From the NCBI GenBank assembly GCA_947525975.1, contig CANNVE010000004.1, positions 1 through 64,000 on the forward strand: a stretch of DNA of 64,000 bases, given 5' to 3'. This DNA is from an uncultured Muribaculaceae bacterium. Its GTDB lineage: Bacteria > Bacteroidota > Bacteroidia > Bacteroidales > Muribaculaceae. A model generated the notes under the pieces. The model was not told where the DNA came from. It searched no databases and saw nothing but the letters and a program-made list of their open reading frames with translations. Numbering within the stretch: position 1 is the stretch's first letter; each line of letters opens with the position of its first letter. Of the stretch, positions 1,675 through 31,120 are shown piece by piece. Both the position numbers and the translations under genes were made by a program.

Positions 1675-2202
1675 CTAATTCTTAATGCCGGCATAGATGG
1701 CAGCGCATGCCTGCTCGAGAAGGTCGAGCACAAGCTCAAATCCTTCGCGGCCTTCATAATAAGGATCGGGCACATAGTCGTAGCCGCAATCCGCAGGCAG
1801 CCACTGGCCTATTGAATGCAGCTTGCGCTCGGCCTCGACTGTGGGAGCCATACGGCGCAGATTGCGCATATTGTTAGCATCCATGCCTATGATAAGGTCG
1901 AAATCATAGAAGTCGCTTTCTCTGACCTGACGGCACACATGATCAAGGCGCAGCCCTCTGGCAGCGGCGGCGGCCCGCATGCGGCTGTCGGGGAGATCGC
2001 CTATGTGGTAATCTCCGGTGCCGGCTGAGTCGACGCCTACGCTCGTGTCTCCCTTGGCCTTTAGCAATGCCTTCATCACACCCTCGGCGGCAGGCGAGCG
2101 GCAGATATTGCCCAGGCACACAAAAAGTATCTTTATTTTATCTTTGTTTTTCAAAGAGTTAATTAATTCTATTGTTTTATGGTTTACTTTGTGGTTTACC
2201 AT
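1675..2202 (-). CDS. Low-molecular-weight protein-tyrosine phosphatase with element-supplied N-terminus
   Basis: Cytosolic LMW phosphotyrosine phosphatase (Wzb/YwlE-like; substrate not deducible). The P-loop VCLGNICRSP contains the CX5R signature, and the acid loop VPDPYYEG lies near the C-terminus. About 175 residues from ATG 2202 compares with the usual 150-165 because the first ~24 residues are extra. They read MVNHKVNHKTIE... and lie inside the integrated element, left of the att repeat at 2108-2133. The family normally starts almost directly at KILFVCLGN. The start at 2202 is preferred over the longer frame from 2277 because the likely -7 box (2254-2247) lies downstream of that upstream ATG. 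The original 5' end of this gene is still visible at 7141-7092. Confidence 0.9.
   Translation of the reverse strand: MVNHKVNHKTIELINSLKNKDKIKILFVCLGNICRSPAAEGVMKALLKAKGDTSVGVDSAGTGDYHIGDLPDSRMRAAAAARGLRLDHVCRQVRESDFYDFDLIIGMDANNMRNLRRMAPTVEAERKLHSIGQWLPADCGYDYVPDPYYEGREGFELVLDLLEQACAAIYAGIKN
2108..2133. repeat. Left attachment site (att core repeat)
   Basis: This 26-bp copy starts TTGCCCAGGCACAC and ends AAAAGTATCTT. It matches 7092-7117 except for A/G at the fifteenth base. It encodes the KILFVCLGN stretch of the phosphatase P-loop on the minus strand, and the mismatch is synonymous (TTT/TTC, Phe). Confidence 0.9.
2180..2199 (+). repeat. Left arm-site-like direct repeat pair
   Basis: Two copies of TGGTTTAC (2180-2187 and 2192-2199) are spaced 12 bp start to start. 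The same 8-mer with the same 12-bp spacing occurs at the right end (6966-6973 and 6978-6985). Matching arrays at both ends suggest tyrosine-integrase arm-type binding sites (inference). On the minus strand they encode VNHKVNHK in the phosphatase N-terminus. Confidence 0.65.
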
Positions 2203-2318: not shown

Positions 2319-2327
2319 TAACTTTGC
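2319..2327 (+). promoter_or_regulatory. Promoter -7 box ahead of the structured RNA
   Basis: TAACTTTGC fits the Bacteroidota -7 consensus. The predicted transcription start is about 2333. No clear -33 TTTG is present at standard spacing. It would drive the structured RNA at about 2333-2556 and, by readthrough, the lipoprotein gene at 2616. Confidence 0.55.
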
Positions 2328-2332
2328 ACCCA

Positions 2333-2556
2333 AATAACAAAATCAAACCGCCTATGTAACATAGTCAACTAAAAGACATATAAATAAAAAGCGTTAGCTT
2401 TATTCAATGTTTCGGAAAATCGCCAATTAGAAGAAACAACCATTGAGTAGAAGTTGATGCTCACGGTATATCCGTGGGCTTTTACTCGTATATGGTTGTA
2501 AGGTGTTTGGCGATACCTCCGAAACGTAGACGAAGCAAAAAGTCCACGTTTTTTAT
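2333..2556 (+). ncRNA. Putative structured RNA (standalone sRNA or regulatory leader)
   Basis: The segment can fold into one long nested hairpin. Helices: P1 2409-2415/2519-2525 (GTTTCGG/CCGAAAC), P2 2420-2426/2507-2513 (TCGCCAA/TTGGCGA), P3 2437-2443/2492-2498 (CAACCAT/ATGGTTG), P4 2445-2452/2480-2487, P5 2459-2466/2472-2479 (GCTCACGG/CCGTGGGC). Two small hairpins precede it (2353-2365 CTATG/CATAG; 2388-2401 AAAGC/GCTTT). A terminator-like hairpin with a T-run follows at 2525-2556. AGGTGT (2501-2506) can pair with ATACCT (2513-2518), which would compete with P2. A -7 box lies just upstream. The pairings are seen in sequence; the function is unknown. It could act alone or as a leader that attenuates the lipoprotein gene 60 bp downstream. 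I recognise no named RNA family. Confidence 0.6.
2525..2556 (+). terminator. Terminator-like hairpin closing the structured RNA
   Basis: CGTAGAC (2525-2531) pairs with GTCCACG (2542-2548) with one internal mismatch, followed by TTTTTTATTT. The first base overlaps the 3' strand of helix P1. Alternative folding could therefore switch termination. Confidence 0.5.
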
Positions 2557-2615
2557 TTGTCTAAACCTCAGCAATGGACTTAACAGAATTAACAACAATC
2601 AAAATCATAAAGACA

Positions 2616-3074
2616 ATGAAAAAGTATCTTTACCTTTTCTTCGTGGCACTCTTTGCCACAATGTCATTAACTCTGACCTCGTGCGGAGATGATGACGATG
2701 AACCCAACGACCCCACAACTGGGAAAATGGAACTTACCATTGATGGTAAAAAGCACGTGTTTACAAACACGATGTCAAATGTGAGTGGAAACGAATACAG
2801 CTGTCTTGTCTATAACAATGACAACCAACTTAACTTTTCTATTTATGGATGGAATGATGTTGAAAAAGGCACAGCACTCACAGATGAAAACTTTACCCTC
2901 ACTTGGAGTACTGACAATGCCATAATAGGAATGCCTACATCCAACACAGCAGTAAAAGTAACTGCAAAGGATAGTAAGAATGTAACAATCTCTTTCAACA
3001 ATGCAAAATTTGAAGATATGAGAGGTTATGAATCGTTCACGGTTGATGGCGCAATAACACTTCCTTTGAAATAA
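2616..3074 (+). CDS. Small surface lipoprotein carried by the element
   Basis: I do not recognise a named family. The 152-residue protein starts MKKYLYLFFVALFA, a classical signal peptide ending in the lipobox LTSC. The acidic run GDDDDEPND directly follows the lipidated Cys. That resembles the Bacteroidota lipoprotein export signal, which sends lipoproteins to the cell surface (family knowledge). The rest is a Ser/Thr/Asn-rich beta-type domain of about 110 residues. The start at 2616 is chosen over the in-frame ATG at 2574 because it gives a proper signal peptide. It is probably cargo of the element, transcribed through the structured RNA just upstream, and ends at the bidirectional hairpin at 3130-3157. 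Confidence 0.8.
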   Translation: MKKYLYLFFVALFATMSLTLTSCGDDDDEPNDPTTGKMELTIDGKKHVFTNTMSNVSGNEYSCLVYNNDNQLNFSIYGWNDVEKGTALTDENFTLTWSTDNAIIGMPTSNTAVKVTAKDSKNVTISFNNAKFEDMRGYESFTVDGAITLPLK

Positions 3075-3160: not shown

Positions 3161-3790
3161 TTAAATCCCAAATTCGGCTTTCAGTCTTTGAACGGTTGAA
3201 ACCGAAACATCGCAAAGTTTAGCGGTTTTTCGGATGCTGATACCTTGTTTCAATAACTTAATTACTTGCTTATATTCTTCGGCTTTTTCTTCTCTGGATT
3301 TAGTAGAGCCTTCTTTTCTTCCGAGTTTACCGCCCTTATCAATATACAACTGACGACCACTATTCAGACGGAATTTAATATTTTCTCTTTCCAACTGGGC
3401 GCAGGTTGATAGGGTTGCAATCATAACGGGTGCGAACATAGACGGTTTGCCTTCTTCATCTAAAAGTGTGAATTGCTCCTTCTGCATATAAAGGTTAATG
3501 CCCTCGTCAACCAACATTTTAACGGTTTCAAGCACTTCAAAAGCATTACGCCCAAGTCGTGAAAGTTCCGACACTAATAACATATCAACTTTGTTAGATT
3601 TGGCATATTCAAGAGCCTTGAGAAAAATGGGTCGCTCGTTATTTTTCTTTGCACCGCTGATTTTTTCCTCAAACACTTCAGACACTTCCATACCTTTGTA
3701 TTCGGCATACTTGGTAAGGTCGCTAATCTGACGCTCGGTATTTTGGCGGTCGGTGGTGCTTGAAACCCTTGCATATATTATTGCTTTCAT
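3161..3790 (-). CDS. Serine recombinase (resolvase/invertase family)
   Basis: A 209-residue small serine recombinase. The N-terminal catalytic domain begins MKAIIYARVSS with the nucleophile at Ser10, followed by the typical ISGAKKNNERP and LSRLGRN segments. A C-terminal helix-turn-helix (about 170-205, ISIRKTAKLCDVSVSTVQRL) would bind the recombination site. Such proteins resolve dimers or invert DNA. Its role here, beside a separate tyrosine integrase, is more likely multimer resolution or inversion than integration (inference). A good promoter (3833-3864) precedes it. Confidence 0.92.
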   Translation of the reverse strand: MKAIIYARVSSTTDRQNTERQISDLTKYAEYKGMEVSEVFEEKISGAKKNNERPIFLKALEYAKSNKVDMLLVSELSRLGRNAFEVLETVKMLVDEGINLYMQKEQFTLLDEEGKPSMFAPVMIATLSTCAQLERENIKFRLNSGRQLYIDKGGKLGRKEGSTKSREEKAEEYKQVIKLLKQGISIRKTAKLCDVSVSTVQRLKAEFGI

Positions 3791-4111: not shown

Positions 4112-4279
4112 TTACTGAGATGGTATCAACCGCCAATAATCTATCATAGCCTTACTGATTTTTCGCTTGGTATCTTCGGAATGGTGCTTGCCGTGCATGG
4201 GGTTATTGCTACCTAATTTTGCTAACCTCATCTTAAATTTGGTCGCTTCGGACAATTTTCTACGGATTCTTTTCGTCAT
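4112..4279 (-). CDS. NUMOD3-motif DNA-binding microprotein
   Basis: A 55-residue basic protein from ATG 4279. It is almost entirely the pattern RRKLSEATKFKMRLAK...NNPMHGKHHSEDTKRKISKAM. This matches the NUMOD3 repeat known from homing endonucleases and small phage or element proteins, where it contacts DNA. No nuclease domain is attached. It is divergent from the Rep_trans gene across a 63-bp gap that holds nested palindromes, so it may repress or assist replication (inference). An upstream in-frame ATG at 4306 would add nine residues. Confidence 0.7.
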   Translation of the reverse strand: MTKRIRRKLSEATKFKMRLAKLGSNNPMHGKHHSEDTKRKISKAMIDYWRLIPSQ

Positions 4280-4283
4280 AATT

Positions 4284-4325
4284 TTGAACTTTAATGAATT
4301 ATTCATATATTTATAAATAGTTCAA
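4284..4325. promoter_or_regulatory. Nested palindromes between NUMOD3 protein and Rep gene
   Basis: The outer arms are TTGAACT (4284-4290) and AGTTCAA (4319-4325). The inner palindrome is ATGAAT-T-ATTCAT (4294-4306). Two nested dyads in the divergent promoter gap are a plausible operator for either flanking gene. Confidence 0.45.
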
Positions 4326-5379: not shown

Positions 5380-6954
5380 TCAATGTTCTGATTTCCACTT
5401 CAGATAAGCCTCGTATTGTTCTAATGCTTTGGAGTCACCTTTTGCCTTTAATGCTTCTCGGATTTCGTCTTGATGCTTTTCTTCTTCCTTTGCCGAAATT
5501 TCCTTGAATATGTCTTGACCTATAATTAACGATTTATTGTTAGCCTCAACGATGTTAATTGTGTCAAACTCTTTGAGATAAGTTTGAATTTCAGACGGAT
5601 TGCGCCCCATATTTTGAGCGATAAGGCCGATGGGTACATTCGCATGATACAACTGACTTGCATAGCTATGACGTGCAGAATAGAATGTAATCGGTGGCAT
5701 ACCTAACCGTTTGGCGATACGTTTCAAATTAACATTAACTAAATAATTCATATAGGTCATACGTCCAAATTTCACCTCAGCAGAATCGTTAAGATGATCA
5801 AAAATCGGAAAAAGATAACGCTCCATATCTTCATCTTCTAATTGGCAATAATCATCAAAATAACTACCAAACGGATTAAGGTAAGGCATCATATTGGCGG
5901 TTTCAACAACGATCCGTGTATGGTGGTGCGTCTTGGCTCGGTATGTGCTGATGTCGTAATGTAAAACGGTGCGTTTATGTTCTTCGGCATAATCAACACC
6001 GTAGAGGGCTGAATCACGCTGATACTTTTCGTTGTCAATAACCTCAACTAAATGTAAATCTTTTAATTTCAGATTGGCAATATCAACTAACGCTAAACCT
6101 TGAAAAAGATAAGAGGTAAGATATAACGCTAATGAAAATTGCTCGGCATTAATCGGTGTGAGTTTGTTCTGACCTTTCAATTTGAACTTCTGATTAACCC
6201 AATATTGCTTGAGGTCGTGTTCTCCGAGTACATTGTTATCTTCAATTCCTAACCTACCATAACGAAGATAATAATACCTCATCAACTTAGTAATCTCGTC
6301 AATGGTTAAGGCACGTTTTCGTGTTTGAGTATTTAATTTTTTACTAAAAGTAAAGTTTGAAAATGGGGTTTCTTTAATATAATCTTGCCTTTTGGCATAG
6401 TTGAAAAGAGCCTTGAAACAATCAAAAAACTTTCTAATAGAATTATCTGAATAGTGACATCTGAGGTGTTCTTCAAATTCAGATAGCCAACTTGGAGTTA
6501 TTTCAAATAGCTCTAAATCAATATTATTAGTATATTTTTTGATACGATTAAGCAGAGTACGATATCCAACTGCATTATTATGACTCTGTTTTTCGTCCTT
6601 GAAAAAAGTTATCCTTTCTTCAAAAAGGGAATATAATGTTATTTGAGTCGGTGCAGATTTTGAGAGGTGTTTTACAATAGTGGCAGCTGTATAATCGTCT
6701 TTACCTTCTAACGATAAAACATAATCGTTAGCCTTTGTCATTTCACGGGTGATGATGGTGTTGAGGCTACTGGCACGATTTCCTTTTACCTTGTTCTTAT
6801 CTTTACTCCATTCGGATGGTTTACAGGATATTCCGATACTTTTATATGTGCGCTTACCGTTATAACACACCCTCAACATTATGGGATGCTCACCATTAGC
6901 AAGTGTCTTACTTGTGTAGAAAATAGGTGTTATAGTCGGTAAATTACGTTTCAT
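5380..6954 (-). CDS. Tyrosine site-specific recombinase (element integrase)
   Basis: A 524-residue integrase of the long Bacteroidota type. It has an N-terminal arm-binding domain (about 1-100), a SAM-like core-binding domain (about 105-200) and a C-terminal catalytic domain. Visible catalytic residues are R428 and H429 in YSARHSYAS, and the nucleophile Y459 in QTYLKEF. The box I Arg is absent: FQGLALVDIANL carries Ala288 where TGLRxSD integrases have Arg, as reported for IntDOT-type enzymes, which also lack it. The gene lies at the right end of the element, transcribed inward, with its start about 140 bp from the att repeat. A -7 box with an overlapping palindrome precedes it. Confidence 0.93.
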   Translation of the reverse strand: MKRNLPTITPIFYTSKTLANGEHPIMLRVCYNGKRTYKSIGISCKPSEWSKDKNKVKGNRASSLNTIITREMTKANDYVLSLEGKDDYTAATIVKHLSKSAPTQITLYSLFEERITFFKDEKQSHNNAVGYRTLLNRIKKYTNNIDLELFEITPSWLSEFEEHLRCHYSDNSIRKFFDCFKALFNYAKRQDYIKETPFSNFTFSKKLNTQTRKRALTIDEITKLMRYYYLRYGRLGIEDNNVLGEHDLKQYWVNQKFKLKGQNKLTPINAEQFSLALYLTSYLFQGLALVDIANLKLKDLHLVEVIDNEKYQRDSALYGVDYAEEHKRTVLHYDISTYRAKTHHHTRIVVETANMMPYLNPFGSYFDDYCQLEDEDMERYLFPIFDHLNDSAEVKFGRMTYMNYLVNVNLKRIAKRLGMPPITFYSARHSYASQLYHANVPIGLIAQNMGRNPSEIQTYLKEFDTINIVEANNKSLIIGQDIFKEISAKEEEKHQDEIREALKAKGDSKALEQYEAYLKWKSEH

Positions 6955-30819: not shown

Positions 30820-30893
30820 CGGGGTTTAGCTCAGTTGGTTAGAGTACGCGTCTGGGGGGCGTGAGGTCGCTAGTTCGAGTCTAGTAACCCCGA
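30820..30893 (+). tRNA. tRNA-Pro (anticodon GGG), copy 1
   Basis: A 74-nt cloverleaf. Acceptor CGGGGTT (30820-30826) pairs with AACCCCG (30886-30892), with discriminator A. The anticodon loop CTGGGGG gives anticodon GGG, reading CCC/CCU. T arm GCTAG-TTCGAGT-CTAGT. C1-G72 and A73 fit bacterial tRNA-Pro identity. CCA is not encoded. Confidence 0.95.
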
Positions 30894-30906
30894 CTGAAAG
30901 CAAGTG

Positions 30907-30932
30907 AAGCCTGTGGATACATCCACAGGCTT
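30907..30932 (+). terminator. Terminator after tRNA-Pro copy 1
   Basis: AAGCCTGTGGAT (30907-30918) pairs with ATCCACAGGCTT (30921-30932) and TTTCTTTT follows. Confidence 0.9.
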
Positions 30933-30978
30933 TTTCTTTTAAAAGGAATTAGGGCGACAAAAAAAAATCGAAAAAAGA

Positions 30979-31010
30979 TTTGGTCGTTTCAAAAATTGTT
31001 CGTAACTTTG
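30979..31010 (+). promoter_or_regulatory. Promoter of tRNA-Pro copy 2
   Basis: TTTG (30979-30982), a 20-bp spacer and TAACTTTG (31003-31010), followed by a leader nearly identical to that of copy 1. Confidence 0.85.
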
Positions 31011-31034
31011 CATCGCTTTTAAGGAACAACACCT

Positions 31035-31108
31035 CGGGGTTTAGCTCAGTTGGTTAGAGTACGCGTCTGGGGGGCGTGAGGTCGCTAGTTCGAGTCTAGT
31101 AACCCCGA
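31035..31108 (+). tRNA. tRNA-Pro (anticodon GGG), copy 2
   Basis: Sequence identical to the copy at 30820-30893, offset by 215 bp, with its own promoter and terminator. This is a tandem duplication of a complete transcription unit. Confidence 0.95.
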
Positions 31109-31120
31109 CAAAAGCAAAGA

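Follow-up and report, generated by a model that had tools for sequence, protein, structure and literature searches.

Ribosome-mediated attenuators are the described systems that come closest to the RNA analyzed here. The layout of trp leaders sets the pairs 1:2 and 3:4 against 2:3, and the leader ORF of tetQ has three codons. The tetQ gene of Bacteroides CTnDOT, which comes from the same phylum and also from a mobile element, is listed as a translation attenuator in PMC5418344. Leaders of tetQ, trp, and Escherichia coli topAI/toiL share with our RNA the competing segments within the 5' leader and a very short upstream ORF. They differ in that the ORF here is often just an ATG and a stop codon and lies outside the first pairing segment (R1), the terminator-like stem belongs to the second hairpin, whose loop is complementary to that of the first, and the cargo genes have no common function.

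Portable leaders of horizontally acquired operons are known from ops/JUMPstart elements with RfaH, ops being a short pause site that is read by RfaH. As in our case, one leader type stands before unrelated accessory genes, but the present RNA is large and structured and has no known factor. Integron attC sites, with their RYYYAAC/GTTRRRY boxes, are likewise folded repeats beside exchangeable genes, whereas our RNA precedes the gene, has a promoter box and a U-run, and lacks paired boxes.

The sequence-only reading of this locus had proposed an undescribed structured RNA, which is supported as far as we searched. Rfam 15 at the gathering threshold gave no match over the window (best permissive matches, E value of 1.3), and the same database gave nothing but a downstream DUF805b element on 20 divergent loci. 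A description of the family was not found in the papers and abstracts searched, and a fragment of it may be listed in some catalogue. PMC8040213 deals with thousands of candidate structured RNAs of human microbiomes and names Bacteroidetes candidates of 80 to 132 nt; these thousands could include a piece of the present family, but none of the named candidates compared has its architecture. Other papers give 64 structured 5' regions in Flavobacterium psychrophilum, some of them conserved without an Rfam match (PMC9723704), and 5' UTRs of >100 nt in 13.5% of Bacteroides thetaiotaomicron mRNAs (PMC7366714). PMC12121999 was among the papers compared for known relatives.

The DUF805b RNA (Rfam RF02914) carries a cis-regulatory label in Rfam and is only 35 nt long. 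At an E value of 0.1, ten genomes gave 27 matches to it, 9 of which lie 29 to 43 nt downstream of our RNA on the same strand, i.e., all 7 in genome G445, of which 3 exceed the Rfam cut-off, plus a single one in G603 and another in G620. The other 18 do not adjoin a covariance-model match, and loci L255 and L257 carry DUF805b alone before a start codon. None was found in the window's genome, and those downstream of other copies are outside the core. In several copies, L199 (2539-2574) among them, the element sits between the RNA and the gene start. DUF805b is a separate neighboring module. DUF805 RNAs were reportedly described in a 2017 paper. RF02913, which had been guessed to be DUF805, is pemK and gave one weak match, below the cut-off, in 14 genomes.

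Structure of the RNA in the window

The window is the whole stretch of DNA analyzed, 64,000 nucleotides from an uncultured Muribaculaceae bacterium. The nested helices proposed for 2319-2556 lie where they were claimed, and the folding energy of this segment is -69.9 kcal/mol, compared with -42.1 (SD, 4.0) for 200 dinucleotide shuffles, none of which equaled it (z -6.9). The suggested covariance check was made on alignment A1, which holds 29 sequences from the 30 best loci of the window's family (L030 was excluded for Ns). A 46-pair nested model has 96.1% of its cells paired there. Both sides have changed in 115 cells, whereas shuffles give 30.5 such cells and slid structures 5 to 26. Homologs that break the helices had been named as a refutation, and the outcome was the opposite, with the pairings kept by compensatory changes in A1, in 139 units, and in a held-out set. 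Because of the fold score and the compensatory changes in A1, the structured RNA at 2319-2556 is, on comparative grounds, confirmed as real and as a member of a large family.

Other proposals fared unevenly. The -7 box, the AGGTGT and ATACCT motifs, and the lipoprotein ATG at 2616 are all at the positions given. The RNA reaches beyond its proposed limits on both sides, through GACA 2375-2378/TGTC 2558-2561 and AGTCC 2541-2545/GGACT 2576-2580. A terminator-like hairpin with a T-run had been suggested; the T-run (2549-2554) is as placed, but there is no local hairpin closing it. In one fold this run serves as the 3' strand of the outer helix, and in the other it comes directly after the long R3:R4 stem. 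The suggested switch is supported in a stronger form, with competing folds, but the competitors are R1:R2 plus R3:R4 versus R2:R3 and not AGGTGT/ATACCT. The latter pairing (P6) and P2 are conserved alongside each other, and P6 may form a loop pseudoknot.

The z values of duplexes come from a pairing test in which the duplex energy of a unit's own two segments is compared with that of segments from other units, so that it is independent of the structure of any one alignment. The features, in window coordinates, are as follows.

2319..2326, + strand: -7 promoter box TAACTTTG (sequence; counts of TAnnTTTG upstream of units)
2354..2359, + strand: minimal ORF ATG-TAA, start codon adjoining the stop (ORF enrichment, frame bias)
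2375..2393, + strand: P0 5' strand, GACA 2375-2378 plus AAAAAGCG 2386-2393, partner 2547-2561 (P0 z -8.6)
2391..2409, + strand: segment R1, pairing with R2; its GCG also pairs with the P0 3' strand (R1:R2 z -22.8, held-out -11.6)
2409..2415, + strand: P1 5' strand, partner 2519-2525 (z -47.8)
2420..2426, + strand: P2 5' strand, partner 2507-2513 (z -23.9; C-G to G-C swap in 6/29)
2436..2443, + strand: P3 5' strand, partner 2492-2499 (z -44.9)
2441..2466, + strand: segment R2, of which 2441-2449 pairs with R1, 2445-2452 is the P4 5' strand, and 2459-2466 the P5 5' strand (R2:R3 z -21.2, R1:R2 z -22.8)
2472..2490, + strand: segment R3, with the P5 3' strand 2472-2479 and the P4 3' strand 2480-2487; partner R2 or R4 (R3:R4 z -22.8, held-out -12.6)
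2501..2518, + strand: P6 hairpin AGGTGT/ATACCT, its loop containing the P2 3' strand 2507-2513 (z -7.3, held-out -4.7)
2519..2525, + strand: P1 3' strand (A1 covariation and P1 duplex test)
2526..2548, + strand: segment R4, of which AGTCCACG 2541-2548 pairs with R3 (duplex tests, held-out repeat)
2549..2554, + strand: U-run immediately 3' of the R3:R4 stem; joined by 2547-2548, it doubles as the P0 3' strand (T-run of at least 5 in 117/139)
2576..2580, + strand: P8 3' strand GGACT, partner 2541-2545 (z -12.7)
2616..3074, + strand: small lipoprotein gene behind the leader (ORF; lipobox by eye)

The outer GACA/TGTC part of P0 alone has a z of -3.4, and both P0 parts together have -9.8. No Pfam family matches the lipoprotein at an E value of 0.001.

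Distribution of the family

Within the window's family, a DNA search (E ≤1e-3; the weakest matches are short) found relatives in 59 of 297 genomes, the window's own included, and in 19 of 30 genera. A covariance model found three copies in the window's genome, of which two are divergent (59.6 and 44.9 bits), and matched 136 of 393 genomes of the order (E 0.01) and 35 of 395 genomes of a phylum-wide draw (E 1e-5). Antisense copies of strong members score 32 to 45 bits, so single matches in that range are unsafe. In 13 genomes chosen for having matches, a deeper search gave 1 to 21 copies per genome (one G603 row is an antisense self-match). About half of the copies in the genome with 21 (G312; e.g., L186, L187, L189, and L190) lie ~200 to 640 nt from a contig end, which suggests that a longer repeat near the copies broke the assembly.

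A pattern scan gave at least 119 stretches with names. The genera among the matches listed include Bacteroides, Prevotella, Alistipes, Leyella, Dysgonomonas, Flavobacterium, Winogradskyella, Chryseobacterium, Draconibacterium, and others, so named next to single MAGs labeled Ignavibacteria (64 bits, two) and Cloacimonadota (61 bits) and a MAG labeled Desulfobulbaceae at 45.5 bits, inside the unsafe range. Hosts of the family include gut and marine Bacteroidota, and one laboratory strain with copies is Bacteroides acidifaciens DSM 15896. Four viral contigs carry the RNA; a plasmid collection gave no match to it, and a phage collection gave two 27-nt matches at an E value of 0.2.

For the unit set, 26 antisense rows of alignment A4 were dropped (115 to 89) and 6 duplicates were taken out, leaving 169 units and, after removal of similar cores, 139. 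The held-out set went from 50 to 32 units after 18 similar ones were removed; 4 rows, three of them antisense and one partial, were also dropped. P2 variation is undercounted in L063-L181 because the selection pattern fixes P2.

Two competing folds

Four segments recur by eye: R1 (GCGTTAGC...TATTCTTG), R2 (CAAGAGTA...GCTCACGC), R3 (GCGTGGGC...), and R4 (AGTCCACGC and then the T-run). Over the 139 nonredundant units, own-versus-cross z was -22.8 for R1:R2, -21.2 for R2:R3, and -22.8 for R3:R4, the mean own duplex energies being nearly equal (-18.3, -19.4, and -20.3 kcal/mol, respectively); the wrong partners R1:R3, R2:R4, and P2a:P3b gave -1.1, +1.8, and -1.0. The held-out units (n = 32) repeated the picture, with -11.6, -9.0, and -12.6 for the same three duplexes and -0.9 to -1.4 for wrong partners. 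One comparison labeled as a control, R1 with 138-150, gave -5.4 (-4.3 in a second run), probably the signal of a short GCUUU/AAAGU helix, and there is also a weaker signal for R1 reaching the P5 5' strand (z -5.7).

Covariation points the same way as the duplex energies. In the columns of alignment A2, R1:R2 plus R3:R4 have 88 both-side changes, against 42.8 in shuffles and at most 51 in slid structures, with 75.9% of cells paired versus 70.1% in shuffles (48 to 78% in the R1:R2 columns); P4 plus P5 have 153 against 38.3, with 90.8% paired. Folded alone, the left half forms at least 8 R1:R2 pairs in 136/139 units and the right half at least 8 R3:R4 pairs in 135/139, and R3:R4 also formed in 30/32 held-out units. 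The predicted energy of the long hairpin is -62.5, compared with -49.5 for its two halves when loop contacts are left out. R4 must displace P5, which forms a separate hairpin, and P8 shares the R4 strand with R3:R4. Judged by its conserved pairings, the layout is that of a transcription attenuator, 1:2/3:4 versus 2:3.

The two hairpins R1:R2 and R3:R4 have complementary loops, whose specificity was addressed with a cross-talk test on eight multicopy genomes (43 units). A left loop with its own right loop reached -32.8 kcal/mol, against -12.1 with the other copies of the same genome, and another copy equaled the own loop partner in 0/266 pairs, so P1 to P3 most likely act inside one molecule. 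Taken alone, P1, P2, and P3 were matched by other copies in 3, 20, and 5 of the 266 pairs, and the stem segments R1:R2 and R3:R4 were matched in 100 and 96.

Terminator-like end

The R3:R4 stem has a median of 20 pairs and abuts the T-run without a gap in 89 of the 122 units having at least four T's (gap of 1 to 5 in 33); 17 of the 139 units have no run of four T's. T-runs of at least 5 occur in 117/139 units and 21/32 held-out units, versus A-runs of at least 5 at the 5' end in 42/139, which argues that the T-run is not kept solely for P0 pairing. The 3:4 stem followed by a U-run that is expected of attenuators was found. A 20-pair stem with a loop of ~35 nt is an unusual intrinsic terminator, and a simple terminator scan for short loops left the R3:R4 stem unflagged and flagged the P5 hairpin followed by TTTT instead.

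Leader position and minimal ORF

The idea that the RNA is a leader is supported by position, strand, and promoter box. The -7 box of Bacteroidota has the consensus TAnnTTTG, which is found within 90 nt upstream in 101/138 units (~5% in mononucleotide shuffles), most often 60 to 69 nt before the core, and in the 90 nt downstream in 9/135. Gene counts were made on the 166 of 176 units with at least 250 nt downstream; a same-strand ORF of at least 60 aa starts within 350 nt in 160 of them, at a median of 63 nt, and a same-strand gene lies behind the RNA in 29/29 held-out units. Given the promoter box, the strand, and the gene behind, the RNA most likely forms the beginning of an mRNA. Both its structure and its leader position are well supported.

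A minimal ORF, i.e., an ATG with an in-frame stop after 0 to 2 codons, is present 22 to 42 nt upstream of the core in 69/138 units, against a mean of 11.5 (maximum, 20) in mononucleotide shuffles. Over the whole 75 nt upstream it is found in 58% of the 139 units, versus 28% in dinucleotide shuffles (maximum, 35%). Among 93 ATGs, stop offsets of 3, 6, and 9 occur in 29, 37, and 11 and offsets of 4, 5, 7, 8, 10, and 11 in 0, 2, 4, 14, 8, and 6; ATGs elsewhere have no clear stop-offset preference. All 10 nonredundant units among L001-L030 have the minimal ORF, two of the three copies in the window's own genome (L032 and L033) are without a clear one by eye, and the held-out count is 8/32; the ORF is thus common without being present in every unit. 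In the window, R1 starts 37 nt from the ATG, and with the usual footprint a ribosome on this ORF would end ~20 nt short of R1. The minimal-ORF region showed no pairing signal with R1 or the downstream spacer (z 0.0 and +1.5) and a weak one with the P0 strand (z -4.2).

Proposed mechanism

We propose that the RNA is a transcribed 5' leader of ~200 to 250 nt, belonging to a family across Bacteroidota and working as a portable two-state attenuator before accessory genes, a reading drawn from sequence to which we assign a probability of about 0.58. As RNA polymerase moves through the leader, R1:R2 would form first and leave R3 free for R4, and the R3:R4 stem with its U-run would then end transcription, releasing an RNA of ~220 nt. 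Should R2:R3 form instead, transcription would read through, with P1 to P3 zipping the two loops together and P0 hiding the U-run. Since the long hairpin is predicted to be the more stable fold, termination would have to win by folding order. The minimal ORF suggests that a ribosome starts and stops there, as in leader-ORF attenuators. This ORF and the example of tetQ make a ribosome positioned there the first candidate for the signal, although it would not cover R1 directly.

Downstream genes

The genes behind the RNA share an accessory nature and often export but no common pathway. By a simple rule applied to downstream genes of at least 120 aa, 92/130 look exported (signal peptide-like or membrane N terminus), compared with 61/350 controls, which are other ORFs of the same loci. 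Pfam scans of 144 of the 160 downstream proteins gave 83 families, the commonest in 7 proteins; the counts include BspA-type LRR (7), BACON (4), T9SS tail (3), HSDR_N (2), URI-fold toxin (2), and MmeI-type enzyme (1).

This bias toward exported or membrane products would suit a riboswitch-like leader, in which a ligand or protein binds the unpaired conserved stretches and controls translation or RNA stability instead of termination. Nearly invariant stretches in A1 (n = 29), such as GCGTTAGCTT and GTGTTTGGCGATACC, and the pseudoknot-like P2/P6 and P8 would also fit. However, P2 varies in sequence among more distant copies, which makes the invariance partly just local, a cargo of 83 families has no common pathway, and the adjacency of the U-run and the three balanced duplexes fit termination better. 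We regard a ligand- or protein-binding leader as unlikely.

Cargo turnover and mobile context

The attenuator proposed above stands before genes that vary between related loci. In L011, L014, and L134, the RNA follows a recA-like gene (by eye), and homology ends 12 to 29 nt past the core, after which the genes differ. In L015 and L017 (genomes G207 and G268), homology stops ~65 nt past the core and picks up again at a hairpin, 3.7 kb away in one and 1.1 kb in the other, with different genes in between. L001 and L002 have the LMWPTP-site element and the RNA in common and differ in the downstream gene, homology ending 60 nt past the core. As far as these alignments go, they show that genes turn over beside a kept leader, which does not imply the RNA as the cause of the turnover.

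A kept RNA followed by different genes at these shared sites is also what one would expect of a cassette or recombination site at the DNA level, an attI/attC-like landing pad that folds as single-stranded DNA. Ordinary recombination in the flanks would give the same picture, and attC-type boxes are present at both ends in 1/139 units (shuffles, mean of 0.57 and maximum of 3). Moreover, copies <3 kb apart were noticed in just three places (G312:C295, G372:C66, and L133), and the fixed place between promoter box and gene, the U-run, and the orientation all point to an RNA. A role as DNA is thus improbable.

The RNA of the window had been placed inside a small integrated element, which is right for the window but not a trait of the family: 7 of the 30 best loci are at the same LMWPTP site (L001-L006 and L009), L008 is beside the same integrase, and the other 22 have, by eye, neither that site nor the integrase within 1.5 kb on each side. 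L029 looks phage-like. The 5-kb element of the window is bounded by a 26-bp direct repeat (2108-2133/7092-7117, 25/26 identical), which lies in the 5' part of the LMWPTP gene (1678-2196, minus strand). It contains a tyrosine integrase (5380-6954), a serine recombinase (3161-3790), a 290-aa protein without a Pfam match, and a 64-aa orphan ORF (4112-4306) with NUMOD3, a homing-endonuclease DNA-binding motif, with no adjoining nuclease domain. The interrupted LMWPTP gene seems to receive a new start (MVNHKVNHKTIELINSLKNK) from the element; nearly the same N terminus is found in L002-L006 and a similar one in L009. Elsewhere in the window, a near-perfect 26-bp inverted repeat with a 4-nt loop (1579-1634), between ORFs 731-1561 and 1675-2277, is probably a two-way terminator, and two tandem tRNA-Pro(ggg) genes lie 140 nt apart at 30820-31109.

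In two genomes, an ~80-bp palindromic repeat (L228, 5733-5812; L229, 703-780 and 3049-3121) lies where the variable genes downstream of the RNA end on the right, and in one of the two it also lies left of the conserved block. Four related loci of Wenyingzhuangia aestuarii (L203, L204, L206, and L207) carry the RNA, then a short ORF whose start is related among them, and then a lipoprotein that varies; in L203 and L204 the ORF has 98 aa and is nearly identical. Between these copies, both the RNA alleles and the flanks are mosaic. We considered hypermutation of the RNA there because W203 and W204 have flanks 96 to 99% identical and different RNA alleles; it was dropped, as the four-copy alignment is mosaic and gene conversion explains the allele difference.

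Improbable alternatives: independent transcript or copied repeat

The promoter box and the terminator-like end would together yield an RNA of ~220 nt, so the main product of the locus could be a stand-alone small RNA with a terminator of its own, the gene behind it being a by-product. Such a product is compatible with the attenuator as well, since termination at the U-run would release one. A same-strand gene lies behind 160/166 units and 29/29 held-out units, and a separate TAnnTTTG box is rare in the 90 nt downstream (9/135), which makes the small RNA as the main function very improbable. Antisense self-matches of 32 to 45 bits do make weak matches unsafe, but it has a negligible likelihood that the hairpin arose by chance or is just an inverted repeat multiplied by copying, as compensatory changes in the units used are far above shuffled and slid controls, in the held-out set too.

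Biological meaning

A broader and still doubtful proposal is that one portable bistable RNA serves as a general gate for new genes in Bacteroidota. It would be carried or kept at variable, cargo-swapping sites, with private loop codes preventing cross-talk, and would open when ribosomes stall or fail to recycle at the start-stop, thereby tying surface, restriction, and toxin-like genes to translation stress. Already under the attenuator reading, a major gut phylum would have a large regulatory RNA family, for which we found no description, with up to 21 copies per genome and unrelated accessory cargo. The pair of hairpins with complementary loops, together with three near-equal competing duplexes, is an unusual switch design, and the family makes testable how single acquired genes are switched on in bacteria without Shine-Dalgarno control. 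Many unannotated surface proteins, BspA-like repeat proteins included, would gain a known type of control.
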